Part shown: positions 847 to 26,426 of the stretch, piece by piece
Numbering within the stretch: position 1 is the stretch's first letter
How the letters are laid out: each line of letters begins with the position of its first letter
Source: Arenibacter certesii DSM 19833
Lineage (GTDB): Bacteria; Bacteroidota; Bacteroidia; Flavobacteriales; Flavobacteriaceae
Length of the DNA stretch: 64,000 nucleotides
Direction of reading: 5' to 3'
Assembly: GCF_000429545.1 (NCBI RefSeq)
Contig: NZ_AUCB01000009.1
Span: forward strand, 62,001-126,000
Made by a program: the position numbers and the translations under genes
The notes under the pieces: model-generated
Database searches by the model: none
Told to the model about the DNA's origin: nothing
The model's input: only the letters and a program-made list of their open reading frames with translations

Positions 847-3030
847 TTAGTCCAATAGGATATCTAATATTTGAATTGCAGTATCGCTTATTTTTTTACC
901 TGGACCAAAAACGGCTACTGCTCCAGCTTCATATAAAAAATTATAGTCTTGTTTGGGGACTACGCCGCCTACAATTACCATAATATCTTGGCGCCCGTAT
1001 TTTTTTAATGCCTCCAATACTTGGGGCACAAGGGTTTTGTGACCTCCTGCCAAAGAGGATATCCCTAAAATATGGACATCGTTTTCTACCGCCTGTTTCG
1101 CAGCCTCAGCGGGGGTTTGGAACAAGGGGCCAATATCTACATCAAACCCAAGGTCGGCATAGCCTGTAGACACCACTTTTGCACCACGATCATGACCATC
1201 CTGACCCATTTTTGCGATCATTATCCTTGGTCTACGTCCTTCTTGTTCGGCAAACTTGTTGGCCATTTCTCGAGCTTTTTCAAAGCTATTATCGTCTTTT
1301 ATCTCTTTTGAATACACTCCTGTAAATGTTTTTATTACTGCCCTATGTCTGCCAAAGGCATTTTCCAATGCGGTGCTGATTTCTCCCAAAGTAGCTCTTG
1401 CCTTAGCCGCCTTTACCGATAAAGCTAGTAAATTATTTTCACCTTCGGTTGTATCGTAACTATTTTTGGAGGAGGCATATTTCATCTTTATTTCTGCTGC
1501 AGCCGTAAGCTGGTTTAAGGCGTACTGTACATCACTGGCATTTCTATTCGACTTTAGCTGTTGTAATCTTTCAAGCTGTTGTCTACGTACTTCTGCATTA
1601 TCTACTTCCAATATCTGAAAGCTATCTACTTCTTCCTCTGCTTGATAGTTATTGACTCCCACAATAATATCCTGGCCACTGTCTATACGGGCTTGTTTTT
1701 TTGCTGCCGCTTCCTCTATTCTAAGTTTTGGTATTCCTGCCTCTATTGCTTTGGTCATGCCACCCAAATCTTCTACTTCTTGGATTAACTCCCAAGCTTT
1801 TTGAGCTATTTCGTGGGTCAGGGATTCCACATAGTAACTGCCGCCCCAAGGATCAACGGTTTTTGTTATTCCCGTTTCTTCCTGTAGAAATAGTTGGGTG
1901 TTACGTGCTATACGTGCAGAGAAATCGGTAGGAAGGGCTATGGCCTCATCCAAGGCGTTGGTGTGCAAACTTTGGGTTCCTCCAAATACTGCCGCCGAGG
2001 CTTCAATTGTAGTCCTGGCAACATTATTAAAAGGATCTTGTTCAGTAAGGCTCCATCCACTAGTCTGGCTATGGGTGCGCAGTGCCAAGGACTTATTTTT
2101 TTTAGGATTAAACTGTTTTACGAGTTTAGCCCATAACATACGGCCAGCCCTCATTTTAGCGATTTCCATAAAATGGTTCATGCCTATCCCCCAGAAGAAA
2201 GAGAGTCGCGGTGCAAAATGATCTATATCTAGCCCTGCCTTTAATCCCGTCCTAATATATTCTAATCCATCTGCCAAAGTATAAGCTAATTCCAAATCGG
2301 CGGTAGCCCCAGCTTCGTGCATATGGTAACCAGAGATGCTAATACTGTTAAACTTGGGCATATGTTTGCTGGTATATTCAAAAATATCGGCTACAATCTG
2401 CATGGATGGTGTAGGTGGGTAGATATAGGTATTCCTAACCATAAATTCTTTTAGGATATCATTTTGGATAGTACCGGTCAATTGATCCATGGGTACGCCT
2501 TGTTCCTCAGCTGCTATAATATAAAATGCCATTATTGGTAGAACGGCGCCGTTCATGGTCATCGAAACAGACATTTTGTTCAAAGGGATATCCTTAAAGA
2601 GTATTTTCATATCCTCTACCGAGTCTATCGCTACACCGGCTTTGCCTACATCCCCTACAACTCGTTCATGATCGCTATCATATCCTCTATGGGTTGGGAG
2701 GTCAAATGCTACGGATAGACCCTTTTGTCCTGCTTTTAAATTCCGCTGATAGAAAGCGTTGCTCTCCTCAGCTGTTGAAAACCCCGCGTATTGTCTGATG
2801 GTCCATGGACGCTTAACATACATGGTGCTGTATGGCCCTCTTAAATAGGGCGGAATTCCTGCGGCAAAATTTAAATGTGCTAAGCGCTCTGTATCATATT
2901 GGGAATAGGATGATTTTAACGGGATACCCTCGGCAGTCATAAATTGATCCCCATTAAATTTGTGATGGTGGGAACCTTCACTTTTGCCAAGTTTTATATG
3001 TTGGAGATTTTTTCTAGCCATTGTCATCAA
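847..3030 (-). CDS. mutB: Methylmalonyl-CoA mutase, large (catalytic) subunit
   Basis: Interconverts (R)-methylmalonyl-CoA and succinyl-CoA with adenosylcobalamin, in the propionate and branched-chain degradation route. The 727-residue protein has the expected two parts: an N-terminal TIM-barrel substrate domain (about residues 45-560, with [18 protein letters not shown] and [19 protein letters not shown]) and a C-terminal B12-binding domain (about 590-727). The cobalt-ligating histidine is visible in the DxHxxG motif, as [11 protein letters not shown] with His613, followed by the GG loop [10 protein letters not shown]. Length matches the family (about 720-740). The gene for the small subunit lies 111 bases upstream on the same strand, and both follow udk and an FtsB-like gene, so the four are probably one transcription unit. 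Nothing looks damaged. Confidence 0.97.
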
Positions 3031-3141
3031 ATTATTTTAAAATATACCATAGATTATCAGTCTGGAAATTCTCCGTAATCATGCTATGGGGTATTAATTC
3101 TTCTATTAAGTTAACCAAACTTATAATATTAAGACTTAAGT

Positions 3142-4524
3142 TTATTCCTGTTCCAAGCGCTTTTGTTCTAACGCTTCCGATAGCCTTTTTTCTATGATGG
3201 GTTCTATTAAAGTTTTTCTGGTTTTGGTTTTAACAAAAGGATACAGTTCCAGATTATCTTTCATTTGTTGTTCGGCGGCAATATATTTATTAGTTCCAAC
3301 CAAGATAACCTCCTTTTTATTAAACCGTTCCTGTTCTTTGTTTGCACTTTCCTTTATTTTTTTCTGAATGAGCTGTTGTTTCAGTTGCGCTAAGAATCCG
3401 CCTCCAGTTTCTATCTGTTTAAATAGTTCCAAGGCCATCGAAGCCAATTGATGGGTTAAGGTCTCTATGTAATAACTACCATCTGGAGCATTGCCAACCT
3501 TGTTGAAATGGGCTTCTTCTTTTAGGAGTAGTAGTTGGTTTCTGGACATCCTAGATCCAAATGTATTGTCTTTTTTGTATATGGCATCATAGGGTAAGTT
3601 GCAGACCGTATTTGCACCTCCAAGGATGGCCGACATGCATTCCGTAGTAGTGCGCAGCATATTGTTGTTATAGTCGTACAAGGTCTTGTTTCTTTTGGTA
3701 GGCACGGCAATGATATGGCAATTAGGCCCAGCTCCAAATTCCTTTGCTAAAGTGGCGAACAACATTCTAAGGGCTCTGATTTTGGCGATCTCAAAAAAAT
3801 AATTCCCACCAATAGCTACCTTAAAAGTAAAAAAGGTTGTTTTTAAAAGCGCTTTATTTTTATCTTCTAAATGGTTGAGGTACTCATTGGCATGTGCCAT
3901 TGCATAGGCAAGTTGTTGTACTCTGTTGGCACCTGCATTTTCATAAAGGGTAAGGTCAACGCTTAAGGTATTGTCATGGTTTAAGGCAAGGATGCTATCC
4001 ATCTGCTGGTGATCTTGCTTCATATTAGAAAACCAATTCCCGCTTCGAGCTAAATTTCCAATAATATCGATGTTCAGAAAAATATGGTGAGCGTTATTTT
4101 CAGCGAATTTTAAAAGCGATTTACAATACGACTCCGATAAAAACTGCAAGTCAAAATATAGGGTGTGTTTATTTAAATCGATGTGTTGTAGTAACTCCTT
4201 TGGATCTATTTTAGGTGATGGAACGGTAAAATGAAGATCTTCTGCTCCTTTTTTTATGGCATCTAAGGCATTTTTATTGGCCATAACCGCATTTCCCCCA
4301 TAAATGGCCTGTCCAATTCCCCAAGAATTATTTAATTGAAACTTGGGCAAATCTAAGGAGGCCATGTCCTCCATATGGTAGAAAGGCTTTGTTTTTATCC
4401 CTTCTGGGGATTCCCAAATTAACTGTTCATTATAGTCCTCGCCCTTAAGGTCTACCTGTATTAGTTGTTTCCATTCTTTAACGGAAATCTCCCGAAAATC
4501 AAGGAACAGCTTGGAATTACTCAT
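3142..4524 (-). CDS. mutA: Methylmalonyl-CoA mutase, small subunit
   Basis: Partner subunit of the heterodimeric methylmalonyl-CoA mutase; in this family it is a degenerate copy of the large subunit with a structural role. The 460-residue protein shows the mutase barrel pattern seen in the large subunit (NYFFEIAKIRALRMLFATLA, LRTTTECMSAILGGANTV, PDGSYYIETLTHQLA) but the protein stops after the barrel. No DxHxxG cobalamin motif is present, so it cannot bind B12 itself. Actinobacterial small subunits are about 600 residues and keep a degenerate B12 domain; the shorter form is, as far as I know, usual in Flavobacteria. Its start overlaps the end of the FtsB-like gene by 8 bases, which suggests translational coupling. 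The large-subunit gene follows. Confidence 0.93.
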   Translation of the reverse strand: MSNSKLFLDFREISVKEWKQLIQVDLKGEDYNEQLIWESPEGIKTKPFYHMEDMASLDLPKFQLNNSWGIGQAIYGGNAVMANKNALDAIKKGAEDLHFTVPSPKIDPKELLQHIDLNKHTLYFDLQFLSESYCKSLLKFAENNAHHIFLNIDIIGNLARSGNWFSNMKQDHQQMDSILALNHDNTLSVDLTLYENAGANRVQQLAYAMAHANEYLNHLEDKNKALLKTTFFTFKVAIGGNYFFEIAKIRALRMLFATLAKEFGAGPNCHIIAVPTKRNKTLYDYNNNMLRTTTECMSAILGGANTVCNLPYDAIYKKDNTFGSRMSRNQLLLLKEEAHFNKVGNAPDGSYYIETLTHQLASMALELFKQIETGGGFLAQLKQQLIQKKIKESANKEQERFNKKEVILVGTNKYIAAEQQMKDNLELYPFVKTKTRKTLIEPIIEKRLSEALEQKRLEQE

Positions 4525-4849
4525 TTTTCTTAGATTTTATACTGTCTTCGTATTCTATTAAATAAATCTCTTCGTTTTTCTTTTTCAGATAATACTGTTC
4601 CCTAGCAAATTTCTCCAACTCCTCAGGATCTGAAAGCTTTTCTATAATTTTCTTATCCCTAGAAATCTCCTCCTGTAGAAATTCGCGTTGTTTTTCCAGG
4701 TTTCTTATTTCCTTTTTAAGTTCCCAATGTATAAGTAGGGAGTTGGTGTCAAAAAAAACCATCCAAATCAAAAAGGCAGTAAGTACCAATACATACATAT
4801 TGGTCACTATAGCGAACCATTTTTTCTTTCTTATCTCTTTTATTCCCAT
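4517..4849 (-). CDS. Septum formation initiator family protein (FtsB/DivIC-like)
   Basis: Small bitopic membrane protein of 110 residues. One transmembrane helix is visible near residues 16-33 (NMYVLVLTAFLIWMVFF), followed by a charged heptad-rich coiled coil (about 40-80: ELKKEIRNLEKQREFLQEEI) and the family signature KLSDPEELEKFAREQYYLKK. FtsB/DivIC proteins bridge FtsL and FtsQ/DivIB in the divisome; that role is inferred from the family. The gene lies 6 bases after uridine kinase and overlaps mutA by 8 bases, so it is inside the udk-mutA-mutB operon. A division gene coupled to a metabolic operon looks odd, but I recall the same neighbours in other Flavobacteriaceae. Confidence 0.88.
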   Translation of the reverse strand: MGIKEIRKKKWFAIVTNMYVLVLTAFLIWMVFFDTNSLLIHWELKKEIRNLEKQREFLQEEISRDKKIIEKLSDPEELEKFAREQYYLKKKNEEIYLIEYEDSIKSKKNE

Positions 4850-4855
4850 AAATAG

Positions 4856-5464
4856 CTATGCTAGCTTTTGATTAATGATAGACCTAACAATATCTACGGC
4901 AACGGTATTGTATTTGTTGTTGGGGATTATTATATCTGCATACTCCTTGGTAGGTTCAATAAATTGATTGTGCATAGGCTTTAAAGTTTTCTGGTATCTC
5001 TCTAGCACTTCATCAAGATCTCTTCCCCGCTCATTAATATCCCGCTTTAACCTTCTGATTAATCGCTCGTCAGAATCGGCATGCACAAAAATCTTAATGT
5101 CGAACATTTCCCTGATTTGTGGATTTGTCATAATTAAGATTCCCTCAACGATCATCACCTTTCTGGGATGGGTAAGGATGGTATCTTTGGTTCGGTTATG
5201 ATTTACAAAAGAATACACCGGTTGATGAATTGGATTGCCATGTTTTAGTTCATTCAAATGATTTCCCAGCAGTTCAAAATCGATCGCCCGTGGGTGGTCA
5301 AAATTTATCTGCGACCGCTCCTCATAGGAAAGATAAGAAAGGTCGTTATAATAAGAGTCTTGGGAAATTACACCAACCTCCTTATTTGGTAACTCATTGA
5401 TAATCTGGTTTACTACGGTTGTTTTTCCACATCCGGTTCCTCCTGCAATCCCGATAATTAGCAT
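4856..5464 (-). CDS. udk: Uridine kinase
   Basis: Phosphorylates uridine and cytidine to UMP and CMP in pyrimidine salvage. The P-loop GIAGGTGCGKTT is at residues 5-16, followed by the family segments QDSYYNDL, NFDHPRAIDFELL and the lid motif RLIRRLKRDINERGRDLDEVL. The longest open frame starts 24 codons upstream (5536), but that extension is unlike the family. The start at 5464 gives the usual MLIIGIAGG N-terminus and a 202-residue protein of normal length. It also sits 17 bases after a TATTTTTG promoter element on the minus strand (5482-5489), which lies inside the rejected extension. First gene of the udk-ftsB-mutA-mutB unit. Confidence 0.95.
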   Translation of the reverse strand: MLIIGIAGGTGCGKTTVVNQIINELPNKEVGVISQDSYYNDLSYLSYEERSQINFDHPRAIDFELLGNHLNELKHGNPIHQPVYSFVNHNRTKDTILTHPRKVMIVEGILIMTNPQIREMFDIKIFVHADSDERLIRRLKRDINERGRDLDEVLERYQKTLKPMHNQFIEPTKEYADIIIPNNKYNTVAVDIVRSIINQKLA

Positions 5465-5481
5465 TTCTAAATATTTTGTTC

Positions 5482-5489
5482 CAAAAATA
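5482..5489 (-). promoter_or_regulatory. Candidate -7 promoter element for the udk operon
   Basis: TATTTTTG on the minus strand matches the Bacteroidota sigma-ABfr -7 consensus TAnnTTTG exactly. It ends 17 bases before the chosen udk start. No good -33 TTTG was found, so the call rests on the -7 match and position only. Confidence 0.45.
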
Positions 5490-5737
5490 GCGATTTGGGA
5501 TGAAAACCCTGTGATTTTAATTCTATCAATAGGCAAAAGAGATGGATCTATACACTTAGTGCCCTTGGATTTTTATGTGAGTAATATAAAGTTAAGCAGA
5601 TAAAATCCCCATTTATAGAAAGATACTAAAAGATTTAACATTTACAGGTGCGCTTTCGGCCAAAATACCATATAAATAAGGGGAATTAAAATAGTTAGCA
5701 ATCATAAAAATTAACAAGGAGTAATTCTATAAATGAA

Positions 5738-5745
5738 TAATTTTG
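5738..5745 (+). promoter_or_regulatory. Candidate -7 promoter element for the serine hydrolase at 5775
   Basis: TAATTTTG matches TAnnTTTG exactly, and ends 29 bases before the ATG at 5775. It lies in the 310-base divergent region between udk and this gene (5465-5774), which otherwise holds only the udk promoter candidate. No clear -33 element was seen. Confidence 0.45.
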
Positions 5746-5774
5746 TTTAATATGTTGTAACAGCTAAAAACATT

Positions 5775-6695
5775 ATGGGGAATAGATTTTATCTTTTTAT
5801 AATTACCTTATTATCCGCTACAGGAATATATGCCCAAAAAGACCTCCCAATCAGAATAGGGGAATCTCAGGTGAAACCTTTGACGAGTTTGGCAAGCAAT
5901 AGTCTGCAGCAAAGTTTGGAACGCGAACTTATGTCCAATCCCAAGTGGAAAGCCTTAATGAAAAATAGAAAAATGGCTGTAGGAATCGTAGATTTAAAAA
6001 ATCCAGACGAGGCAAAATATGCTAGTATTAATGGCAATTATATGATGTACGCAGCTAGTTTGCCTAAAATTGCAATTTTGCTATCTTCTATGGATGCGTT
6101 AGAAAAAGGGGAGCTTAAGGACAACCAAACAATAAGGGAAGATATGCGGCTCATGATCAGTAGATCTAACAACGCGGCCTCAACAAGGATGATCGATCGA
6201 TTGGGCTATGATAAGATACAATCCGTGATGACCGATCCCAAATATAAGTTTTATGATGAGGAACGTGGTGGCGGACTCTGGGTAGGTAAGCGCTACGGTG
6301 GGGGCGGGGACACCAATAGGGAACCCCTTAAGAATTTATCCCATGCCGCCACGGTAAACCAGGTATGCCGTTATTATTATTTGTTAGCCAATGGTCAATT
6401 GGTTAATAGGGAGAGATCTAAACAGATGCTAGATATAATGGGGGATCCTGAATTGCATCATAAATTTGTAAACACGCTAGACGTTATTGCACCCACTGCA
6501 AAATTGTATCGTAAATCTGGATCTTGGAAAAATTTTCATTCGGACTCGGTCCTAGTATGGGGAAAGAATCCAAATAGACGTTATATCTTAGTTGCTTTGA
6601 TAGATGATGAATCTGGGGAGCAAATAATTCGAGATCTTGTGAAGCCAGTAGAAAAAGTACTACGGGCAGGACGCGCTCAAGTGGCCATTAATTGA
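5775..6695 (+). CDS. Exported serine hydrolase, class A beta-lactamase fold
   Basis: Exported 306-residue protein of the penicillin-binding/class A beta-lactamase superfamily. A signal peptide is seen at residues 1-21, ending in YAQ. The three catalytic elements are present: SxxK as SLPK (Ser95), SxN as SNN (Ser131) and KxG as KSG (Lys247). I do not see the class A Glu166 ExxLN motif clearly, so a true beta-lactamase is less likely than a related hydrolase acting on peptidoglycan peptides or another ester or amide. The substrate cannot be told from sequence. A TAnnTTTG element lies 30 bases upstream of the start. The gene is followed in the same direction by a large membrane protein, then by a second exported serine hydrolase on the opposite strand. 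Confidence 0.85.
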   Translation: MGNRFYLFIITLLSATGIYAQKDLPIRIGESQVKPLTSLASNSLQQSLERELMSNPKWKALMKNRKMAVGIVDLKNPDEAKYASINGNYMMYAASLPKIAILLSSMDALEKGELKDNQTIREDMRLMISRSNNAASTRMIDRLGYDKIQSVMTDPKYKFYDEERGGGLWVGKRYGGGGDTNREPLKNLSHAATVNQVCRYYYLLANGQLVNRERSKQMLDIMGDPELHHKFVNTLDVIAPTAKLYRKSGSWKNFHSDSVLVWGKNPNRRYILVALIDDESGEQIIRDLVKPVEKVLRAGRAQVAIN

Positions 6696-6790
6696 ACCAT
6701 GGTCCATCATCACACATGTTGGGTAATAGGAGCTCCAGTTACCTTTGTTAGCGCTATATATTGTAAATTGGTTTAGTCCTAATAAGTTAT

Positions 6791-9667
6791 TTGGTATTTA
6801 ATTTACATAAAGAACCACATTTGAACTACCTATTATCACTGGTTAAAACATATATTCTAAAAGCTTTTGATCTGAAGGAGGAGGAGTTAAAAAAAACGCT
6901 TCTTCTGCAGTTGAACATATTCCTTATTATAACGGTTCTACTGATTGTAAAACCAACTATCAACTCCTTATTTCTTTCCGAACTTTCCTCTAGTGCTCTT
7001 CCTCTAGGTTATGTGCTAACAGCAATTATGGCTATTGTAGGTTCTTATTTTTATGATAGCGCCATGGAAAAATATGCACTGAACATAATAGTTGATAGGA
7101 CTATTATAGGTTCAGTAATTTCATTGGTGCTATTTGCTATCGCATTTAGTTTTAACCTTGCTAGCGGGTATATTCTTTATATACCATATGTCTGGGTGGC
7201 ATTGTTTGGTCTGCTTACCGCCTCTCAGTTTTGGATAATGGCCAACCTAGTCTATAATGTAAGAGAAGCAAAACGCGTCTTTGGATTTATTGGTGCGGGA
7301 GCTATAGCTGGTGGAATATTTGGGGGGTATTTAACCTCTTTGTTGACCAAGATACTATACACTGAAAATTTGCTGTTTGTTGCAGCGGCCTTGCTTCTAT
7401 GCTGTCTTCCCATTACCCGTTACATATGGAGTACAGAGGTAGTGAAATTAAACCCTTTTCAAGTTTCAGGAAGGTCTACACCTAAAGGAGAATCTCCTTT
7501 TAGACTAATTAAACAATCTAAATTACTAAGCTTAATTGCCCTGGTAATTGGGATTAGTGTGCTAATCGCCAAGCTTGTAGATTATCAATACAGCGATTAT
7601 GCCTCTAGGTTTATACAAAATCAGGATGAGCTGACTTCATTTTTTGGATTTTGGTTTTCCACGCTCAGTGTAATTTCCTTATTAATTCAATTATTTCTTA
7701 CCAAGCGAATTGTGGGGACTTTTGGGGTTGGGAAGTCGTTATTATGGTTGCCCACAGGTATTTTAATTGGGTCGGTTCTATTATTGATTCTTCCCCAGTT
7801 GTGGGTGGTGGTATTTATTAAAATTGTGGATGGGAGTTTAAAGCAGTCCGTAAATAAAGCGGCAACGGAGCTTCTTTCCATCCCCATACCCATAGAAATT
7901 AAAAAGAAGACCAAAACCTTTACTGATGTAGTGGTAGATAGTATCGCAACGGGACTGGCCGGCTTTATTTTGATATTCTTTATCAATGCGCTAGAAATAC
8001 CTTCAACTTACATCAGTTTAATTATTATTATCCTAATTTCTTTATGGTTGTATTTTATCTATCATCTCAGAAGGGAGTATATAATAGCGTTTAAAGGGTT
8101 GTTGGAACAATCTGGTGTAAAAAAGGAAAAGGTAGATAAGAAAGAAATAAAGGTCACGTCCATTATAGATACCGTTGTCCGGGTGCTAAATAGCGGAACG
8201 GAGAATCAGATACTTCACATGCTCCATAAAACTTTAGAGGTGAAGGATGAACGTTTTTTTTATGCCATTAAAAATCTTTTAAGTTATCCTTCTGCCAAGG
8301 TGCGGGCTCTTGCTATAGAGAACCTTTATTTTCTTAACACCGAAAATTTATGTGTACCCATTCAAGATCTGATAATGGATAAAGATCAGCAAGTCACCAC
8401 TTCTGCGTTTAGATACTTACTGAAGAATTACGATCAGGATCAGGTTCAGCTTTTTAATACCTATCTCAATGTGGAGGATAACACCATTGCCAATGCTGCC
8501 TTGGTAGGCTTGTCCTTAGAATTGAGGAACAATACGCTTTTACAAGGCCGTTTTAGTTTGGATAACCGAATAGAAAACGCGTTGTCGCAACTTACCTACT
8601 TAAGCTCCGAGGAGGAGAAAACGAATAAGATACAGGCTATTCTGGAAGCTATAGGAAATGCCAAGGTAGAACGGTTTTACGATGTTATAAAGGTGCATAT
8701 AGATTCCGGAAATAGTGCTGTGGCCAACACTGCAATAATAGCGGCATCCAAAACCTTGAACGAACAGTTCGTGAGTTTAATTGTTGCTAAGTTATCGGGG
8801 AAGGAAACTAGAAAGTCTAGTGTAGAAGCCTTATATTTCTTTGGAGAGCCTATAATTGACATTCTGTACGAAAAGGTATTGAGGGAGAATGAGGTGGAGA
8901 TGGAAGATGCTGCAGTAGTAGTATTGGTAATGGAAAAGTTTGCCTCGCAAAAAGCTGTAAATACTTTGATAAAACTAACTGGAGAAACGGAACATACTAT
9001 AAAAATTGAAGCTATTGAGGTCTTAAAAAGATTGAAATGGAAGTATCCACATTTAAAAATTAACGATCGATTTATTGTGGATAGAATTTTGGACGAATGC
9101 AATCTTTATCAGAATACCCTTTCTGTTATTCATTCCCAGATTATCATCAGATATAAAAGAAATTCCGAGATACCGGAATCGCGCGAAGAAAACGAGGCCA
9201 GAAACGGTTTGATACATTTATTGGAAATGCGATTGGATAGGCAATTACAACGAATCTTTAAGTTTTTGGGTATCAAATACCCTCCACAGGATGTAGACCC
9301 CATACTAAACTCTATACTGCACGGAAAAGAGGAACAACGGATACATGCCATTGAGTTTTTAGATAACATCTTAGATATTCAGCTTAAAAAGGAATTGATT
9401 CCTGTAGCCGAATCCACCCTTTTAGAAACGGGTTCAGAAAAAAAACTAAAGAATTTAAATATTAAGGTGCTAAGTGAGTTTGAATGTTATACTGCCCTCT
9501 TAAAAAGAAAAGATGTTAAATTGAGATTGGCGGTACTTTACCTAATTGAAAAAATTAACGAACCAAAATACAACTCCCTATTGGAAATGGCTTTGGATGA
9601 TTCTCATGAAAAGGTTAGGAAAAAGGCTGCTGAAATCCTTCAATCCACTGAAAAGACTACTTTTTAA
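6791..9667 (+). CDS. Large membrane protein: nucleotide-transporter-like (NTT/MFS fold) domain plus C-terminal HEAT repeats
   Basis: 958-residue protein. Residues about 35-420 hold some ten to twelve hydrophobic segments (LLQLNIFLIITVLLIVKP; FIGAGAIAGGIFGGYLTSLL; SLWLYFIYHLRREYI) arranged like the ATP/ADP translocase (NTT) branch of the MFS fold. Residues about 440-958 are soluble, with repeated paired helices of HEAT type (SYPSAKVRALAIENLYFL; DDSHEKVRKKAAEILQS). Substrate unknown; free-living bacteria rarely import ATP, so a transport role is only a guess. There is no ATG before the first membrane helix: an in-frame stop lies at 6764-6766, and the only usual start codons after it are TTG at 6791 and TTG at 6821, so the start is uncertain. 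The last 11 bases overlap the convergent serine hydrolase gene. Confidence 0.75.
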   Translation: MVFNLHKEPHLNYLLSLVKTYILKAFDLKEEELKKTLLLQLNIFLIITVLLIVKPTINSLFLSELSSSALPLGYVLTAIMAIVGSYFYDSAMEKYALNIIVDRTIIGSVISLVLFAIAFSFNLASGYILYIPYVWVALFGLLTASQFWIMANLVYNVREAKRVFGFIGAGAIAGGIFGGYLTSLLTKILYTENLLFVAAALLLCCLPITRYIWSTEVVKLNPFQVSGRSTPKGESPFRLIKQSKLLSLIALVIGISVLIAKLVDYQYSDYASRFIQNQDELTSFFGFWFSTLSVISLLIQLFLTKRIVGTFGVGKSLLWLPTGILIGSVLLLILPQLWVVVFIKIVDGSLKQSVNKAATELLSIPIPIEIKKKTKTFTDVVVDSIATGLAGFILIFFINALEIPSTYISLIIIILISLWLYFIYHLRREYIIAFKGLLEQSGVKKEKVDKKEIKVTSIIDTVVRVLNSGTENQILHMLHKTLEVKDERFFYAIKNLLSYPSAKVRALAIENLYFLNTENLCVPIQDLIMDKDQQVTTSAFRYLLKNYDQDQVQLFNTYLNVEDNTIANAALVGLSLELRNNTLLQGRFSLDNRIENALSQLTYLSSEEEKTNKIQAILEAIGNAKVERFYDVIKVHIDSGNSAVANTAIIAASKTLNEQFVSLIVAKLSGKETRKSSVEALYFFGEPIIDILYEKVLRENEVEMEDAAVVVLVMEKFASQKAVNTLIKLTGETEHTIKIEAIEVLKRLKWKYPHLKINDRFIVDRILDECNLYQNTLSVIHSQIIIRYKRNSEIPESREENEARNGLIHLLEMRLDRQLQRIFKFLGIKYPPQDVDPILNSILHGKEEQRIHAIEFLDNILDIQLKKELIPVAESTLLETGSEKKLKNLNIKVLSEFECYTALLKRKDVKLRLAVLYLIEKINEPKYNSLLEMALDDSHEKVRKKAAEILQSTEKTTF

Positions 9668-10916
9668 TTATTTTATCAATACTGCTGGCCAGCATCATAT
9701 GGTCTGTGGCCGAATTTTTTCGCAATACATTGGTCATTAAAACCACCATATAGGTACAGTTATCTGGATGTTCTATAATGGCTACGGAGTTCATAAAATT
9801 TGTGATGTTCCCCATATATTTGCCACAAGGTTCACCACTTGTTTTATTACACTGGTACAAACTCCCCGATTTAAAATAAACAGCGGCTTCTTTTAATGAA
9901 GGGGATTGTGCATATCTTATCCTGCGATCCGTCATATACATTAATCGCTTCATCTCAAGGCTCGAGGCTTCATCTATTACATTCCCTTGTTCTAATTGGA
10001 TTAAGAACTTCATTAACCCCAAAGTAGATCCTATACTTCCGCCCTTGTCTCCAACATATTTGTTGGCGCCAGAGGTAAAAAAGCTGCCCAATCGCCATTC
10101 ATCGGAACTTATGTTTAAATTACGTAGTGGTAGGTTTACAATATCGTTGGATAAATCGGTGAGATCTTTTCTAGGGGTAGTGTTGAAATAAGCATCGGCT
10201 TCTTCTTGAGTAAGTTCTGGGTATGCCTGTCCAAAGGCGGCCATTAACAAGGCTTCCCGCCATACTATACTGGCAGCGCCATTATTGCTAACAGAGAGCA
10301 TATGGTCTGCCCATTCAAATAAGGTAAACACGTCACTGGCAACCACCTGTCTTTTAATGAGTTTATTGGTCTCTACATTAAAAATTGGAACGGTATGTGA
10401 ATCTGTTAAGCCCCAGACGCCTGACTTAACGGATTTGGAACGTAATAAATCAATTCTTTTTTCGAAGGAGTCAGGATAAATTTTCGATAATTGGTCAAAT
10501 AGCGCTACCAATACCGCCAATTTACCTACGCTACCCGGTTGATAGCCTGCGGTTTCATTTCGCTTTGCATAGCGAATCTGATTTACATCGGAAATATCCA
10601 AAACTGCAAGAGAATAACTTTTATCCAACCCTTTGAAAAGTCCGTTTATTTCTTTCTGAAAATTTTCGTCTATAGTTAAAATGGATTCCAAACTATCCTT
10701 CTTTTTTGAGAGAAGATTAAGAGTAATTTCCTCGTACGATTTATAAGCTCCGGCAGGTAGGGGGGAGGCTGATTTTATTTCTCCACTTTTAACTAATTCC
10801 AAATACTTTAAACGTTTTATTCCCGTGCGCTCGTATCCATCTATTGGGTAATAATTTACCACAGTAAATGCAGAACAGCATAGTAATAAAAGGGTGTAGA
10901 TGAAATATTTCCGCAT
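9657..10916 (-). CDS. Exported serine hydrolase, class A beta-lactamase fold (coupled to the dikinase-like gene)
   Basis: 419-residue exported protein. The N-terminus is a hydrophobic export signal (IYTLLLLCCSAFTVV, residues 6-20). The catalytic set of the penicillin-recognising superfamily is present: SxxK as SVGK at Ser129, SxN as SNN, and KSG near the C-terminus (YFKSGSLYQ). The core is larger than class A beta-lactamases because of about 100 extra residues between the signal and the SxxK motif. It is not closely similar to the serine hydrolase at 5775. Its start codon is only one base after the stop of the upstream dikinase-like gene, so the two are almost surely translated from one mRNA and may act on the same envelope target. 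Function beyond hydrolase is not known. Confidence 0.82.
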   Translation of the reverse strand: MRKYFIYTLLLLCCSAFTVVNYYPIDGYERTGIKRLKYLELVKSGEIKSASPLPAGAYKSYEEITLNLLSKKKDSLESILTIDENFQKEINGLFKGLDKSYSLAVLDISDVNQIRYAKRNETAGYQPGSVGKLAVLVALFDQLSKIYPDSFEKRIDLLRSKSVKSGVWGLTDSHTVPIFNVETNKLIKRQVVASDVFTLFEWADHMLSVSNNGAASIVWREALLMAAFGQAYPELTQEEADAYFNTTPRKDLTDLSNDIVNLPLRNLNISSDEWRLGSFFTSGANKYVGDKGGSIGSTLGLMKFLIQLEQGNVIDEASSLEMKRLMYMTDRRIRYAQSPSLKEAAVYFKSGSLYQCNKTSGEPCGKYMGNITNFMNSVAIIEHPDNCTYMVVLMTNVLRKNSATDHMMLASSIDKIIKK

Positions 10917-10917
10917 C

Positions 10918-13809
10918 TTATATTTTTTGGGAGAGATTGATTTTTTTGTTCAGATCTATATTTGGGGTTATAGCTTCTAAATAATCGGAGCTTTGTGCTT
11001 TTTTATTTTCCACAAAAGGTCTAATCTGAAACAACCATAACTTATTGTTTTGGAAACCTAGCTCTACATCATAAGCACCTTTATAATCAGTGCTTGTTTC
11101 TTTGGGCATCGTTTCCCTAATAGCATTTGCAAGATCTCTAATATCCTGAACGTTTTGATCGTTTAATATGAAATTTTCAAAGGTAGCTATCTTTTTTTCT
11201 GTTCCTCCTACTGTGGGGAGCCTATTGTAATAAGTTTCCCTGGCAGGTGCAAGCAACTGTTTGCCTCCAGCATCAAATAGCTCGTAGGTTTCTGCAGATT
11301 GCCCGTCTACCGCGCCCCCAGCACCTCTACTAAAGGCTATCGTTAAATCTTCCGGTCTTCCGGAGCTGATTCCCTTGGTAATTAAAACTCCTGAATAATC
11401 TACATCTACACTGGGGATAACCAATATAGATGGGAAAACATTTTCTGGATTCAACAGGAATTTTTGTCTCCATTTAAAACTGCGCTCCGTATAGGGAGAG
11501 GCCCATACATCTTTAATTCCTGCAATTATCTTTTCTTTTGTCACCACATTAAATATGGTTAAATTAAGACCTGCTCCAGTAAAGTCCTTTAGATCCTCCA
11601 TATTGGTGTCACTTCTAAGGAATACTGGAATCTCCCCTAAATTTTCCCCGAGTATATTGGCAAACCCTTTTTCTAGTTGATCAAGAAACTCCGCTTGTAA
11701 GGGAATATTTTTTATAGCTTCTCTTAGCATCTCCAATCTTTGTAATTGATAGTTCTCAACTTCGCTTTGGTTAATTCCTTGGGTCCGCATGGTTTCCGCC
11801 TCTTTAAAAATGGTGTTTAAAAACTCCCAATAGGTAACTTTGCTATCTGGCATAGATTGATCCATATGGGATCTGAAAATTCCAAAGGGAATTACTAGGC
11901 CTTCTACCACTTTGTTAGGGAACATCTTTTTTAATTGACCTAGGTTAGCCGCTTTAGGGCCGCAGAGTTTTCCAGAATCACTGGCATCCACTTCTTTAAG
12001 GTCTAAAATTTTGTTTTCCTGTAATCGGATATTATCAATGGGGACGCGCACCCTATCTTCCCTGCGTTCTTTTTTGGCAAAGAGATTTCGCTCCTCTGGA
12101 GTCATATCATTTTCCAGCTTCATAATCACATTACCTTTATTGGAAACTGCAAAAAATACCACCTCTCCATTATATTGTAGAAGGTTTCTAAGGTTGTCAT
12201 CGGCTAGTGCTGCGTTAGGAATTCCTAAATTCCTAGCCAAAAGTTGTACGTGGGAAACCATATTTCCTTCGGATACGGTGGCAATTCCGGCCACAGGTTT
12301 TAAATCTGCGGGCGGTCGCTGAAATACATATATTTTATCTGAAACTACTTCAATTTCATCTGGGGACCCACTTACAACGACTAGTTCACCCAATGCATAA
12401 CCCGAATTTAAACCGCGAAAGCCGCTTTGGTTATCAATACCCATCACTTTATTGGTGAGTGCCGATTCCTTGGCAATTATATCCCCTAATTCACTAACGG
12501 ACTGCCCCAGGTGTAAGGCTATAGAACCCCTAATTTTATCGTCTATATACCCATATGCTTTGGGCTCAAAACCTGTGTATATATCTACAATATTTTGATA
12601 ATTGGCCTTTACCATAGAAGAACTCCATTCTACTTCCCTACGTGCATGTTCCCATGTTTTGGTAAGTTCCCCTAATGAATTCCCCTTGGAAGCCAAGTTT
12701 AATTGTTGCCATTCTTGGAGTTCTATATATCCTGCCCCAACGTTGGCCATTCCTAAATAGCATACCTTGTCTAAGAGTTCGTTTACGTCTTTGGGCCGCC
12801 ATTCGGGCGTTTTTTTAAAAATTATTTCTTCTAGTTTTAACGAGGCGTCCATTAATTGTAATCTAGCGGCAGCAGATTCTTCTTCTAATATTGCCTTTCT
12901 AATGGAAAGCAGTAATTCTGCCGTTGCCGGAATTAAAAATGCGTTATTTTTTTCCTCTGAATAAAGGTCCGCATACATGATTATATCCTTACCAATCTGT
13001 TTTTCCAAAACAAGGTTTGTTCTTTTTGGCAAAGCAGCAATATCTACAGACTTGTAGAAGGTAGTCATGGTACGGGTTAAAGCATCAATTTTTGAATTGA
13101 CCTCCGAACTTAATTTTCCGCTATGGTTGTTTTTATAATGGGTTACCCTATTAATATCTTCCGCATCGGGCTGACTATGAATTTTTATTCGCAAATCCAT
13201 AAAGCTAGGTGCCATGTCGGAAATCACCTTAGATTCGCTTCTAATTTTTTGCGCTAAATTATCATCTCCTTCGTGCGGTATATCTTTTAAGGATTGTCTG
13301 ATAAGAAAAAAATGTTTTTTTAAATTATCGGTATCGGAGAGCAGCCATTTATAAAAATCAATGCCCCATGCCTCTTCGTCTTCAGACTGTATAGCTCCTC
13401 TATAATATTGCCCTTTTTGTAACACCCATCCGTCGTCAACAGACCTTAAATATTTATCTAGCTGATATTGTTTTAGGCGCGAATGGTTGCTTTCCTTATC
13501 CCAGAACTCTTCCTTATCGGTATAAGCAAGAATTTGACCAAAAAACAAATGGTTGTTCTTACCAAGATCGGTGATCGAGTTTTTGTAGGTAGCATGTTGT
13601 ACTCCAGGGCCAATTTTATCCGGACATGGGTCTTTCGGCAGACGTATACTGCCATCTGTGCAGAACCACCGGATTTCTTTATAAGGACCCCTAATATCCT
13701 TTTTGTAAGAATTGATGAGCTCCTTAATTTCTTGGTTATTCAGTTTTTGTCCCCAAGTAAAATGAGAAATATGTAATAATAGTAGGCAAACAAGCAGTTT
13801 TTTTATCAT
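10918..13809 (-). CDS. Exported PEP/pyruvate-dikinase-like protein with glucan-water-dikinase domain order
   Basis: 963 residues with a clear signal peptide (MIKKLLVCLLLLHISHFTWG, cleavage before Gln21). Residues 21-470 are not recognised, mostly helical in appearance. About 475-560 form a phosphohistidine swivel domain with the catalytic histidine, His520, in NMVSHVQLLARNLGIPNA. About 610-935 form the PPDK_N ATP-grasp domain (CGPKAANLGQL at 617, FLRSDTNMEDLKDFTGAGL, SRGAGGAVDGQSAETYELF). The order swivel then ATP-grasp, with no PEP/pyruvate barrel, is that of plant alpha-glucan water dikinases, where the histidine motif is SHVSVRARN. PEP synthase has the reverse order. Export of an ATP-using dikinase is strange because the periplasm lacks ATP. 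The following serine hydrolase is one base downstream. Confidence 0.8.
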   Translation of the reverse strand: MIKKLLVCLLLLHISHFTWGQKLNNQEIKELINSYKKDIRGPYKEIRWFCTDGSIRLPKDPCPDKIGPGVQHATYKNSITDLGKNNHLFFGQILAYTDKEEFWDKESNHSRLKQYQLDKYLRSVDDGWVLQKGQYYRGAIQSEDEEAWGIDFYKWLLSDTDNLKKHFFLIRQSLKDIPHEGDDNLAQKIRSESKVISDMAPSFMDLRIKIHSQPDAEDINRVTHYKNNHSGKLSSEVNSKIDALTRTMTTFYKSVDIAALPKRTNLVLEKQIGKDIIMYADLYSEEKNNAFLIPATAELLLSIRKAILEEESAAARLQLMDASLKLEEIIFKKTPEWRPKDVNELLDKVCYLGMANVGAGYIELQEWQQLNLASKGNSLGELTKTWEHARREVEWSSSMVKANYQNIVDIYTGFEPKAYGYIDDKIRGSIALHLGQSVSELGDIIAKESALTNKVMGIDNQSGFRGLNSGYALGELVVVSGSPDEIEVVSDKIYVFQRPPADLKPVAGIATVSEGNMVSHVQLLARNLGIPNAALADDNLRNLLQYNGEVVFFAVSNKGNVIMKLENDMTPEERNLFAKKERREDRVRVPIDNIRLQENKILDLKEVDASDSGKLCGPKAANLGQLKKMFPNKVVEGLVIPFGIFRSHMDQSMPDSKVTYWEFLNTIFKEAETMRTQGINQSEVENYQLQRLEMLREAIKNIPLQAEFLDQLEKGFANILGENLGEIPVFLRSDTNMEDLKDFTGAGLNLTIFNVVTKEKIIAGIKDVWASPYTERSFKWRQKFLLNPENVFPSILVIPSVDVDYSGVLITKGISSGRPEDLTIAFSRGAGGAVDGQSAETYELFDAGGKQLLAPARETYYNRLPTVGGTEKKIATFENFILNDQNVQDIRDLANAIRETMPKETSTDYKGAYDVELGFQNNKLWLFQIRPFVENKKAQSSDYLEAITPNIDLNKKINLSQKI

Positions 13810-22374: not shown

Positions 22375-23451
22375 TTATGCTGGTAAGTAGATTACCCCAC
22401 CAGAACAATCGCGTTTTGCTCCGGTAACGGAACGCAAACAATTTATAGAATTCTCCTCTCGTAATACTGCCATGAGGGCGAAGATTAGGGCTTCTTTAAA
22501 CTCTACTAGGAGGTTAGTGGGTTTTACCACTTTGGTGTTACTGCCAACTTTTTCTTGTAATGTTTCCATAAGAAAACCGTTTAGGGCACCTCCCCCTGTA
22601 ACAAAAAGTGTATTTTCTGTTTTGTTTTTTTGCAATTCCACCTGTTTAGCAATTTGGTCACAGATATGGTGGATACTGGTATGTAATAGGTTTTCTATAT
22701 TGTCGTCGTTAGCCTCAACAATGGGAACCACTTGAGCTACAAACCATTCAAAACCAATTGACTTTGGAAAAGGCAGTTTGTAGAATTCTAGGTTGTTTAA
22801 TTGCTCCAGCATGGGCTTGTTGATACTTCCTTTTCTGGCTAGGGCCCCATCCTTGTCATAGTTGAGGTTTATTTTCTGAGTAATGTGGTTAAGAATCATA
22901 TTTGCCAGACCAATATCATAGGCCAATCGTTCCCCATTACGTTCAAAGGAAATATTGCTAATTCCTCCTAAGTTTAGACAATAATCGTACTGCCCAAAAA
23001 AGAGTCGGTCTCCTAAAGGCACCAAAGGTGCTCCTTGTCCGCCCAGCGCCACATCGTTAGAACGGAAATCACAAATTACCTTAATGCCACTTTCATTGGC
23101 TAGATGTTGACCAGAGCCTATTTGAAAAGTGAACCCCTTTTGTGGTTGATGATGAGTGGTATGTCCATGGCTACCTATAAAATGGGCTTCCAATTCATGG
23201 GTCTTAATAAACTCCTTGGATTGTTTTCCTAGCCAGGTTCCATAAGTGTTATGAAATTCTAAAAGCGTATCAGCAGGTAGATAAATTGCATTTTTAAGCT
23301 TCTCTTTTAATGTATCGGAATAGGGAATGCTATCCGTATTTTTTATATCGAAATCCCATCCCGTGGGTGTTTTCCAAATATGGCAATAGGTTAGATCCAA
23401 GCCATCTAGGGAGGTACCGGACATTAATCCCAAAACTTTATAAATTTTCAT
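22375..23451 (-). CDS. anmK: Anhydro-N-acetylmuramic acid kinase
   Basis: Opens and phosphorylates 1,6-anhydro-MurNAc to MurNAc-6-phosphate, an ATP-dependent cytoplasmic step of peptidoglycan recycling. 358 residues, near the 370 of the E. coli enzyme. Motifs seen are the N-terminal phosphate loop GLMSGTSLDGLD, GSHGHTTHHQPQKGFTFQIG, CDFRSNDVALGGQGAPLVP (with the catalytic Asp region) and LNLGGISNIS, plus VTGGGALNGFLM near the C-terminus. The gene follows the NagZ-like fusion gene by 18 bases on the same strand. The product would feed MurQ, whose gene lies at 41306. It is the most downstream gene of a nagX-GH3-anmK run. Confidence 0.95.
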   Translation of the reverse strand: MKIYKVLGLMSGTSLDGLDLTYCHIWKTPTGWDFDIKNTDSIPYSDTLKEKLKNAIYLPADTLLEFHNTYGTWLGKQSKEFIKTHELEAHFIGSHGHTTHHQPQKGFTFQIGSGQHLANESGIKVICDFRSNDVALGGQGAPLVPLGDRLFFGQYDYCLNLGGISNISFERNGERLAYDIGLANMILNHITQKINLNYDKDGALARKGSINKPMLEQLNNLEFYKLPFPKSIGFEWFVAQVVPIVEANDDNIENLLHTSIHHICDQIAKQVELQKNKTENTLFVTGGGALNGFLMETLQEKVGSNTKVVKPTNLLVEFKEALIFALMAVLREENSINCLRSVTGAKRDCSGGVIYLPA

Positions 23452-23469
23452 CCTTTATTGGTTCTAGGA

Positions 23470-26412
23470 TTATTTGATAGCATCGTAAAGAACCTGTTGA
23501 ATATTGGTTCGGGTGTTCAGTTTATACAAGGTGGTATTTTCCCGGGTAGGCAATACTCGGTTCGAAAGAAATAAGTATAATAGCTCCTCCTTTGGGTCCA
23601 TCCAAACCATAATTCCAGTAAATCCAGTATGTCCAAAACTATCGCTACTTGCATCTTTAGCGGTATTGCTATTTACACCTTTGTATTCTAAAAAAGGCTT
23701 GTCGAATCCTAATCCGCGGTGATTATTGTTTTCTGGGAATTGAACTTTGGTAAACTCTTTTACCGTACTTTCCTTAATATATTCTTCGCCTCCGTAGGTA
23801 CCCATATTAAGATACATTTGCATTAACTTGGCTAAATCGTTGGTATTGGAGAACAGACCTGCATTGGCAGAAATGCCGCCCATCATGGCTGCACCTTCAT
23901 CGTGTACGGTACCATGTACTGGTAGGTGCCTAAACATAAAATCGTGCTCGGTAGGTATGATTTGGTTTTTGTTAAACTTTTTATCTGGATTATACGTTAA
24001 GGTGTATGCTCCTAGTTTGTTATAAAAATTCTGATCTACGTAGTTCACAAAATCCTCCTTGGTAATTTCTTCAATCATTGTGGGTAAGAGCATAAAAAGC
24101 AAACCAGAATATTTATATTCCCTTTTTTCTAAGAGAGCCGATTTTTTAATCGCTTTAAATATTTTTTTTTGATAATTGCGGTGTAACCACATATTGGAGC
24201 TGATTTTTATAGGAAACCGAGCCGACGAATCTTTTTTAATAGTACTCCATTTATAGCTTCCATTTTTTCTAAGGGTATTTTTCCAATAGGTGATATAGGG
24301 ATTAAATCCAGCTTGGTGCGCTAGTATTTCCCTAAAATTGGCATCTGCTTTATTGGAGTTTTTAAAATATCTCAGGTAATCATCTATCCCTTTATCGAGG
24401 TCAAACCTTCCTTCATCATACAATTTCATTACAGCAGGAAGAGCAGAGGAAATTTTAGTAACGGATGCTAGATCATAAATATCCTCAAGGGACACTTTTG
24501 TGGTGTCGTTGTATTTTTTTAGACCGTAGGCCTTGTGTAAAACAACTTTCCCATTTTTAGCCACTAAAAGCTGTCCTCCAGGAGTAGCGTTTAAATCAAT
24601 AGCCTGGTTCATTAAAGAATCTACCCCATGGTATAGGGTTTTGGAATCCATCCCAGCATCTTCCGGTAGGGTATATTTAAACCGAATTCCGCCTTTAATG
24701 GTAAGTCCGTCCCCAGCCTTAAATTTTTTCCCGATTCCCACAGGGAGTTGACCATTAGCACCCACACCACCGAAAATTAATTGTGCGGACAAGTCTTGTG
24801 CCGATTCTCCATCCTGATAGCTAACAATAAGCCCCTTGGCATTATCTAAGTTGTTAAGTTTATCTATAGAATATGGGTTTTTAAAATAGGCAACTACCGT
24901 ATTATTAAAAGGTAGGGTTTGAATAAAAGACTGTACGGATTCTGAAAATTTTATGGTGTTTCGTGGTCTGGGAGTGTCATCATGTACACCAACTATAACC
25001 AAGTTGTATTGGGGAAGCTCTTTCTTAATTGCTTCCATTTCCTTTTGGGAGGCTTCCATTGGAAGTGTAAAATGATCTACTTTGGTATATAGATCCAACG
25101 TTTTTTGGAATGTAGTTTTTTTGTCGGCACCAATAGAAACCGACATGATTTTTAAAGTATCCAAGTGTTTTAGAGGAAGGAGGTCTGCCTCATTTTTAAG
25201 TACAGTTAAAGATGCCTCGGTTAGTTTACGCTCTAACAATAAGGCATGTGGATTGTTTATGTCCAGCAGTAGATTGGAAACAGGCAAAGGCTCGTATTTG
25301 TTTAGGTTTACCCATTGCTTAGCCGCAAGGATTTTACGTACCCTGGCATCTATTGTTTTTTGCGAAATGATTCCTTTGTCTACGGCCTTTTTAATTTCAG
25401 TAATTGCTTTGGAGACGTCTTGCACAATCTCTAAAACATCATTACCAGCCAATACAGCTTGTTTATCTACAATCCCAGGTAAATTGCCTTTGGTTACCCC
25501 CTTCATTTCCATAGCATCGGTTACAATAAGACCTTCAAAACCCAATTGGTCTTGTAGTAGGTCGTTGATTATTGCTTTGGAAAGGGTTGAAGGTACCCCG
25601 GATGGGTCTAATGCCGGAATGTTTAAATGGGCTACCATCATGCCATTGATGCCGGCATTTATAAGTTCTTTAAAGGGGTACAGCTCTAGATCGTTTAATC
25701 GCTCTCTAGAGTGGTTTATTTGTGGAAGATCAAAATGGGAATCTGTACTGGTGTCTCCATGACCAGGGAAATGTTTTGCGGTTGTAATTAGTCCTCCATC
25801 TTGCATTCCTTGCATATAGGCAATGCTCTTTTCGGCAACCTTATATTTGTCCTCACCAAAGGATCGGTAGTTAATTACCGGGTTATTCGGGTTGTTATTT
25901 ACATCGGCAACGGGAGCAAAGTTCAGGTGTAATCCTACTCTTTTAATCTGATGCGCCATTTCTTTTCCCATCTCATAGATTAAGTTATCGTCCTGTATTG
26001 CTCCTAGGGCCATTTGGAAGGGAAAACTTATGGTACTATCCAATCGCATCCCCAAGCCCCACTCGGCATCAATTGCTCCCATTAGGGGTACTTTGGAAGC
26101 ATTTTGGTACTCGTTCATCAATTTTACCTGAGTTACGGGATCACCTTGAAAAAAGACCAACCCTCCAATATTCCAATCTTTTATGGTTTTTAGGATATCC
26201 GCTCGGTGTTCCGGCCCACGATTAGAGTAGGCAGACACCCATATAAGTTGTCCAATACGCTCCTGTGGGGTTAGGGATTTCATTATGGAATCTACCCAGG
26301 TACTTTCGGTATATTGTAAGAATTCTGGTGTCTTTTTAGAATTTTCCTGGGCTCGCGAAATTGTAGCAAATAGGCATAGGGTAATGAGTAAGGGTATTTT
26401 TTTAATAGACAT
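23470..26412 (-). CDS. NagZ-like GH3 beta-N-acetylhexosaminidase fused to a class C-type serine hydrolase
   Basis: 980-residue exported fusion. Signal peptide at residues 1-19 (SIKKIPLLITLCLFATISRA). Residues about 35-390 form a family 3 barrel with the NagZ loop KHFPGHGDTSTDSH (about 213-226), which carries the unusual His-Asp acid/base pair, and the nucleophile region IVTDAMEMKG. About 390-590 resembles the GH3 C-terminal domain. About 600-980 is a beta-lactamase/esterase domain with SxxK as SVTK (Ser650), a YSG tyrosine motif and HTG at the end (GHTGFTGIMVW). The known role of such hexosaminidases is removing GlcNAc from muropeptides; the second domain may cut stem peptides. The longer frame from 26478 was rejected because it overlaps the upstream gene and hides the signal peptide. 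Confidence 0.9.
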   Translation of the reverse strand: MSIKKIPLLITLCLFATISRAQENSKKTPEFLQYTESTWVDSIMKSLTPQERIGQLIWVSAYSNRGPEHRADILKTIKDWNIGGLVFFQGDPVTQVKLMNEYQNASKVPLMGAIDAEWGLGMRLDSTISFPFQMALGAIQDDNLIYEMGKEMAHQIKRVGLHLNFAPVADVNNNPNNPVINYRSFGEDKYKVAEKSIAYMQGMQDGGLITTAKHFPGHGDTSTDSHFDLPQINHSRERLNDLELYPFKELINAGINGMMVAHLNIPALDPSGVPSTLSKAIINDLLQDQLGFEGLIVTDAMEMKGVTKGNLPGIVDKQAVLAGNDVLEIVQDVSKAITEIKKAVDKGIISQKTIDARVRKILAAKQWVNLNKYEPLPVSNLLLDINNPHALLLERKLTEASLTVLKNEADLLPLKHLDTLKIMSVSIGADKKTTFQKTLDLYTKVDHFTLPMEASQKEMEAIKKELPQYNLVIVGVHDDTPRPRNTIKFSESVQSFIQTLPFNNTVVAYFKNPYSIDKLNNLDNAKGLIVSYQDGESAQDLSAQLIFGGVGANGQLPVGIGKKFKAGDGLTIKGGIRFKYTLPEDAGMDSKTLYHGVDSLMNQAIDLNATPGGQLLVAKNGKVVLHKAYGLKKYNDTTKVSLEDIYDLASVTKISSALPAVMKLYDEGRFDLDKGIDDYLRYFKNSNKADANFREILAHQAGFNPYITYWKNTLRKNGSYKWSTIKKDSSARFPIKISSNMWLHRNYQKKIFKAIKKSALLEKREYKYSGLLFMLLPTMIEEITKEDFVNYVDQNFYNKLGAYTLTYNPDKKFNKNQIIPTEHDFMFRHLPVHGTVHDEGAAMMGGISANAGLFSNTNDLAKLMQMYLNMGTYGGEEYIKESTVKEFTKVQFPENNNHRGLGFDKPFLEYKGVNSNTAKDASSDSFGHTGFTGIMVWMDPKEELLYLFLSNRVLPTRENTTLYKLNTRTNIQQVLYDAIK

Positions 26413-26426
26413 ATTAGTGTGAATTA

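Follow-up and report, generated by a model that had tools for sequence, protein, structure and literature searches.

Glucan, water dikinase (GWD) of plants works by dikinase chemistry via a phosphohistidine (PMC7569903) and has a C terminus similar to that of pyruvate phosphate dikinase (PPDK; PMC5575247). Nucleotide translocases (NTTs) fused to HEAT repeats are widely conserved in bacteria, including Chlamydia, and 43 NTT sequences from Bacteroidetes have been listed (Major et al. 2017; PMC5381601). The locus described here encodes a predicted exported dikinase (DIK), an NTT-HEAT fusion, and two serine enzymes of the β-lactamase fold (BLA1 and BLA2). It comes from Arenibacter certesii DSM 19833, whose assembly (GCF_000429545.1) comprises 5.0 Mb in 83 contigs, and lies in a 64,000-nucleotide stretch of contig NZ_AUCB01000009.1 (forward-strand positions 62,001 to 126,000). 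This whole stretch is referred to as the window, and its positions are counted from its first letter. The four genes are as follows:

5775..6695, plus strand: BLA1, second β-lactamase-fold serine enzyme (Pfam PF13354) with a predicted signal peptide, assigned by Pfam and kept residues
6791..9667, plus strand: NTT-HEAT, NTT-type nucleotide translocase domain plus HEAT repeats (Pfam TLC and HEAT_2)
9657..10916, minus strand: BLA2, β-lactamase-fold serine enzyme (PF13354) with a hydrophobic N terminus, assigned by Pfam and kept residues
10918..13809, minus strand: DIK, predicted exported dikinase of 963 amino acids, assigned by open reading frame (ORF) call, Pfam, and aligned residues

A four-gene module and its distribution

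DIK, BLA2, BLA1, and NTT-HEAT form an unusually tight four-gene module. In the window, BLA2 starts one base downstream of DIK on the same strand, NTT-HEAT is convergent with BLA2 and overlaps it by 11 bases, and BLA1, encoded on the strand of NTT-HEAT, precedes it by 95 bases. In 28 loci from other genomes, BLA2 is the gene next to DIK in 27, NTT-HEAT is found in 24, and BLA1 in 25; two or three of the NTT-HEAT and BLA1 misses are contig ends. A set of 16 of these loci has BLA2 next to DIK in every case and both NTT-HEAT and BLA1 in 15 (the miss is a contig end), and the 12 distant loci have BLA2 in 11, NTT-HEAT in 9 (one cut by a contig end), and BLA1 in 10 (one miss is a contig end). In ORF clustering, any other neighbor family is limited to at most 7 of the 28 loci and at most 2 of the 12 distant loci. 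The identity matrices of the four proteins correlate with each other (r of 0.75 to 0.93 over 14 to 17 loci; Mantel P of 0.001), which is what shared descent would give.

The distribution of the genes was examined by profile searches in a single draw of 395 genomes of the phylum. Full-length DIK, BLA2, and BLA1 (E value of 1e-10) are found in an identical set of 13 genomes and thus share exactly the same phylogenetic distribution. The probability of identical sets of 13 is 10^-23.9 if genomes are independent, which they are not, as this figure ignores relatedness. At an E value of 0.001, the DIK profile retrieves 21 genomes, 8 of which match only part of the ATP-grasp domain. The NTT profile matches 42 genomes, and the 11 that reach 781 bits or more all carry DIK, with none among the other 382; the highest score in a genome without DIK is 563.5 bits. 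These figures come with the limit that the NTT, BLA2, and BLA1 profiles (A2, A3, and A4) were built partly from genomes that were later scored; their rows are 16 of the 25 linked NTT copies, 17 of the 28 BLA2 copies, and 16 of the 26 BLA1 copies, some of them partial.

Genome G354 is represented in none of these profiles nor in the dikinase profile (A1), and it scores 815, 590, and 408 bits with the NTT, BLA2, and BLA1 profiles. Its four genes are unlinked (C1:547689, C1:397893, C1:309477, and C2:106574; loci L056, L121, L122, and L123), yet none is missing, a point in favor of joint function over hitchhiking. In G251, the module is divided between two contigs, both ending inside the NTT gene. 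DIK, BLA2, and BLA1 are jointly absent from at least five genomes in genus g146 and at least three in genus g166, each of these genera also having a member with all three, as would be expected if a unit were gained or lost.

Each part of the module belongs to a known superfamily, and the system as a whole has no match in the literature that was searched, which mostly leaves out subscription journals: among the matches listed, no title describes such a four-gene module. A known antiphage system was rejected, as PADLOC did not match DIK, BLA1, or BLA2, and its match to NTT-HEAT was only an overlap in the HEAT repeats. Two class-level draws of 108 and 109 genomes yielded no dikinases beyond the six already known (E value of 1e-30). 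A tblastn search of PLSDB with DIK returned 24 records, none covering 80% of the query; the 10 listed match only residues 588 to 941. One locus without NTT-HEAT (L058) carries a gene for an MFS transporter (positions 5093 to 6610) that adjoins DIK in divergent orientation and could replace the NTT.

Architecture, active site, and relatives of DIK

The minus-strand ORF of DIK fills positions 10918 to 13809 exactly with 963 codons, whereas the plus-strand frame is full of stops. A chance or miscalled ORF was rejected on the grounds that its homologues are full length, with 40 to 94% identity to the window protein, and have invariant active sites. The closest named relative is from Arenibacter latericius (94%). 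The protein consists of the following parts:

13750..13809, minus strand: predicted signal peptide, residues 1 to 20, ending in TWG|Q, from the sequence and a simple rule applied to homologues
12430..13749, minus strand: mostly helical domain, residues 21 to 460, with invariant C50 and C62, from a structure model and conservation
12115..12417, minus strand: predicted phosphohistidine swivel domain, residues ~465 to 565, with the His520 codon at 12250 to 12252, from the PEP-utilizers match
10975..12009, minus strand: ATP-grasp (PPDK_N) domain, residues ~601 to 945, from Pfam PF01326, fold matches, and residues

PF01326 matches residues 615 to 943 of the window protein (E value of 2.3e-26; 93.3 bits against a cutoff of 27) and is found in all 24 dikinase rows scanned with Pfam. 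This 24-row alignment (A5) covers 24 of the 29 dikinases and omits near duplicates (L005, L007, L009, L013, and L014); residue counts refer to all 29, that is, the window copy and those of the 28 loci. The PEP-utilizers mobile domain matches residues 503 to 538 of the window protein below the cutoff (E value of 0.009; 16 bits against 23.1), and the general model of this family matches 20 of 24 homologues (best E value of 0.0014). Because of these positions, the swivel is placed before the ATP-grasp domain, the order given in the earlier note, and the minus-strand translation contains His520 within SHVQLLARN, as that note had it. A model of residues 22 to 592, built from the 24 rows, has a pLDDT of 82.9 and a pTM of 0.72 and shows a mostly helical N-terminal domain; the model of the whole protein is poor (pLDDT of 63.9) and served only for a fold search, in which it matched ATP-grasp.

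Residues K619, R732, D914, E916, Q928, and R930 of DIK align with K27, R127, D318, E320, Q334, and R336 of Escherichia coli PpsA. His520 and all six of these ATP-site residues are kept in 29 of 29 copies, which agrees with the earlier statement that the histidine and the ATP-grasp residues look preserved. Comparison with PpsA thus reveals no loss at the six positions, and the claim of an active enzyme is therefore not weakened by the residue-loss test. Judged by its sequence, DIK is a member of the PPDK_N-type dikinase superfamily, predicted to have a complete ATP site.

Sequence searches of solved structures with DIK give phosphoenolpyruvate (PEP) synthases as the best matches (8a8e, E value of 4.8e-13), along with Listeria rifampin phosphotransferase (RPH) entries that are named PEP synthase there; the best folds for the whole-protein model are RPH (5hv2), HpeI, and PEP synthase. 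The earlier note had set DIK apart from PEP synthase, whereas its nearest solved sequences and folds are PEP synthase and RPH. DIK shares with both a PPDK_N ATP-grasp domain and, as predicted, a phosphohistidine swivel, and with PpsA the six residues listed above. In contrast to both, its swivel precedes the ATP-grasp domain rather than following it, and it has a signal peptide and a different N-terminal domain. The order of PEP synthase and PPDK (ATP-grasp, swivel, barrel) is not found in DIK, with no C-terminal PEP-utilizers barrel among the Pfam matches, and the NCBIfam PEP synthase models stay below their cutoff (at best 87.6 bits against 598). An ordinary PEP synthase was rejected for DIK on domain order and on these scores. 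In a fold search with residues 22 to 592, RPH is the only PDB match below an E value of 0.001, and its TM-scores are very low (0.15 and 0.10); nothing else was convincing, and the viral library gave nothing below an E value of 0.4. As far as the model goes, this match would fit a circular permutation of an RPH-like set of helical, histidine, and ATP-grasp domains but does not demonstrate one.

Like GWD and PWD, DIK has a predicted histidine domain followed by a C-terminal nucleotide-binding domain, and its SHV...ARN motif is also present in plant starch dikinases. Unlike them, it lacks CBM45 and CBM20, is bacterial, and is predicted to be exported; its partners are NTT-HEAT and two serine enzymes, and nothing points to a glucan acceptor. 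The histidine domain of GWD (GWD1_pHisD, PF22973) matches 3 of 24 homologues weakly (best E value of 0.012), the window protein not being among the three. No carbohydrate-binding module is among the nine Pfam families found at an E value of 0.1 in the 24 rows, and no glycan-metabolism gene recurs across the distant DIK loci in ORF clustering of the neighbors. Thus, of the match to plant GWD proposed in the earlier note, the domain order stands and the specific tie to glucan dikinases appears weak. In L059, a locus without NTT-HEAT, genes for a glycogen-debranching-type protein (GDE_N/GDE_C) and an MGH1-like glycoside hydrolase (positions 1956 to 6747) lie just upstream of BLA1.

Partner proteins and cellular compartment

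The hydrophobic segments of the NTT domain of NTT-HEAT lie within residues 33 to 428. The window protein matches Pfam TLC (29.6 bits against a cutoff of 21) and HEAT_2, and TLC is found in 14 of 16 homologues. Its closest solved sequences are ADP,ATP carrier protein 1 from Chlamydia (9j3n, E value of 1e-4) and its chloroplastic namesake (9j3j, E value of 3e-4). The order of the parts, an NTT domain and then HEAT repeats, is that of the fusions discussed by Major et al.; the NTT of the module differs from these in being a distinct clade by profile score, tied to DIK and two serine enzymes. The only partner mentioned in the part of that article drawn on here is a cyclic-nucleotide-binding one (PMC5381601). 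Among the neighbors of seven other NTT loci, blastp found no DIK, BLA1, or BLA2, and Pfam searches with 10 neighbor proteins from five of these loci revealed no common theme. Another NTT-HEAT clade is encoded beside genes for a CNNM-type metal transporter and a Mur ligase (L119:3376-9054).

An exported ATP-grasp enzyme had been presented in the earlier note as a paradox, ATP not being found outside the cytoplasm. The adjoining gene offers a candidate answer: since NTT-HEAT is co-inherited with DIK, ATP could be supplied by the partner NTT. What the note overlooked is the module of four co-inherited components.

BLA2 and BLA1 share PF13354 and the SxxK, SxN, and KSG residues with class A β-lactamases and DD-peptidases; PF13354 is found in the window BLA1 and in all 17 BLA2 proteins scanned. 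The six positions of S129xxK132, S210xN212, and K349SG351 are kept in 29 of 29 copies of BLA2, and those of S95xxK98, S131xN133, and K247SG249 in 28 of 28 copies of BLA1. In contrast to the known enzymes, neither protein passes any NCBIfam cutoff, and neither has a close solved relative (best E values of 0.068 and 0.037).

Export was assessed with a home-made signal peptide rule, a hydrophobic core followed by [AGS]|Q, allowing alternative Met starts in the first 60 residues. It is satisfied by 26 of 28 dikinases from other genomes, compared to 39 of 222 other ORFs of at least 200 amino acids from the same loci; the L010 dikinase, a trimmed row, also has a signal peptide upstream. The signal peptide read in DIK by the earlier note is thus supported as a Bacteroidota-type N terminus, and a cytosolic DIK with a false signal peptide is disfavored. 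The rule is satisfied by 23 of 25 BLA1 proteins; BLA2 has a hydrophobic N terminus with the [AGS]|Q site in 0 of 26. All 29 DIK copies retain C50 and C62, and 28 of 29 BLA2 copies retain C356 and C364; the exception, the truncated copy in L015, lacks both. Invariant cysteines in DIK and a BLA2 pair lost together make a pattern that disulfides in an oxidizing compartment would give.

A gene for a TerC-family membrane protein is found inside or beside the module in 4 of 28 loci, between BLA2 and NTT-HEAT in L004, L007, and L014 and just upstream of DIK in L055, a locus in another class than the first three (Pfam was run on two of these genes only, L004:14133-15119 and L055:5697-6659). TerC proteins metalate exported enzymes in Bacillus (PMC10550928), and such a neighbor fits the divalent-metal need of an exported ATP-grasp enzyme.

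Elsewhere in the window, about 9 kb from DIK, a gene for anhydro-MurNAc kinase (AnmK) lies beside one for a fusion of glycosyl hydrolase family 3 and β-lactamase domains (positions 22375 to 26478). This is a peptidoglycan-recycling pair; AnmK, also present in L002, does not belong to the recurrent module. Positions 27817 to 31683 encode a 1,288-amino-acid fusion protein that joins NAGPA phosphodiester glycosidase, Golvesin_C, and metallophosphatase domains, and positions 43897 to 52374 encode a probable gliding adhesin of 2,825 amino acids that contains SprB repeats and a CHU_C type IX secretion domain.

A possible envelope phosphotransfer system

The domain make-up, the kept catalytic residues, the export-type N termini of DIK and BLA1, and the co-inheritance of the genes were computed; from here we infer catalysis, ATP as the cargo, transport direction, topology, the acceptor, and the role of the serine enzymes. 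The best explanation, which we hold tentatively and judge to be slightly less likely than not, is that the four genes encode a single cell-envelope phosphotransfer system, in which NTT-HEAT feeds ATP to DIK and the substrate is also handled by the serine enzymes. DIK would be exported, probably via Sec. The NTT part of NTT-HEAT would carry ATP across the inner membrane, probably by exchanging it for spent nucleotide, and the HEAT domain would probably face the cytoplasm. In the envelope, the ATP-grasp domain would phosphorylate His520 with the β-phosphate of ATP, releasing AMP and phosphate, and the swivel would then transfer the histidine-bound phosphate to an acceptor that the helical N-terminal domain holds. 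BLA2 and BLA1, as acyl-serine enzymes of the penicillin-recognizing fold, would act on the same or a linked envelope substrate. Judging from the fold of the serine enzymes, that substrate might be a peptidoglycan-derived or similar acyl or amide compound, a guess that is more probably wrong than right. The acceptor is the weakest point of the proposed mechanism.

Several observations weigh against this system. Genomes G358 and G373 have DIK, BLA2, and BLA1 located together but only distant NTTs encoded elsewhere (139 and 523 bits). No NTT-HEAT protein with a known cargo is reported in the consulted part of the 2017 article (PMC5381601). BLA2, lacking the [AGS]|Q site, may be an anchored protein. 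The cysteine argument for export is only partial because 25 of 29 DIK copies have a Cys at position 616, so that disulfides do not fit all cysteines, and because BLA1 has no invariant Cys. Finally, of four residues regarded as essential in AtNTT1 (K155, E245, E385, and K527), two are kept in NTT-HEAT (E385 as D264 and K527 as K375) and two are lost; this comparison is uncertain, being read by eye from a structure-search alignment whose first stretch has a negative score.

The two lost residues and the two genomes that do without this NTT clade would also be expected if the module is real but NTT-HEAT carries another nucleotide or the phosphorylated product of DIK, with DIK using ATP from lysed cells or some other donor. 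NTT relatives with other cargoes are indeed known, as the reference list of PMC5381601 includes an S-adenosylmethionine carrier and NAD transport. Nevertheless, the DIK ATP site is complete in all copies and Pfam places the partner transporter in the ADP/ATP carrier family, which makes this reading rather unlikely, if still one to be taken seriously. The proposal of the earlier note, a GWD-like periplasmic dikinase that phosphorylates α-glucan or another polysaccharide, can draw on the swivel-then-ATP-grasp order and the PPDK-like C terminus of GWD (PMC5575247), on the three GWD1_pHisD matches, and on the debranching-type and MGH1-like genes of L059. It appears improbable in view of the missing carbohydrate-binding modules and the lack of a recurring glycan gene in distant loci, and it leaves the two acyl-serine partners without an explanation.

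The RPH folds retrieved with both models, the β-lactamase fold of BLA1 and BLA2, and the patchy distribution (13 of 395 genomes) would suit a set that inactivates drugs or toxins in the envelope, with DIK as an exported relative of RPH and the two serine enzymes as hydrolases. However, the RPH match of the N-terminal model has TM-scores of 0.15 and 0.10, that of the ATP-grasp domain is generic to the superfamily, and a dedicated nucleotide transporter would be unusual in such a set, so that the chances of this explanation are slim. PPDK is reversible, and DIK might likewise run in reverse, using AMP and a phosphorylated compound of the envelope to form ATP outside the membrane, which NTT-HEAT would import. 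The characterized NTTs of parasites import ATP (PMC5381601), in line with such a direction, but the periplasm offers no candidate high-energy phosphate donor, and the two acyl-serine enzymes would again have no explanation; we regard this scheme as very improbable.

In plant plastids, too, an NTT occurs together with a dikinase of the His/ATP-grasp type, GWD. The parallel to an envelope system of DIK fed by NTT-HEAT is suggestive as an analogy, with no homology of the systems claimed. The module occurs in marine flavobacteria, with the NTT partner in most of the genomes examined; carriers of the module include Formosa algae, Olleya namhaensis, and a Cellulophaga strain. These free-living Bacteroidota may, though we lean slightly toward doubt, carry out ATP-dependent phosphotransfer beyond the cytoplasmic membrane, with ATP supplied by a dedicated nucleotide translocase. 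As a rule, the envelope enzymes of Gram-negative bacteria are not considered to have access to ATP. With an NTT homologue co-inherited with a predicted exported enzyme whose ATP site is complete, the idea of periplasmic ATP can be tested directly. The module also offers a physiological partner for the NTT-HEAT fusions, which were described as uncharacterized as of 2017 in the part of PMC5381601 drawn on here. If true, such a system would provide the first known role for NTT-HEAT fusions and would break the rule that bars envelope enzymes from using ATP.

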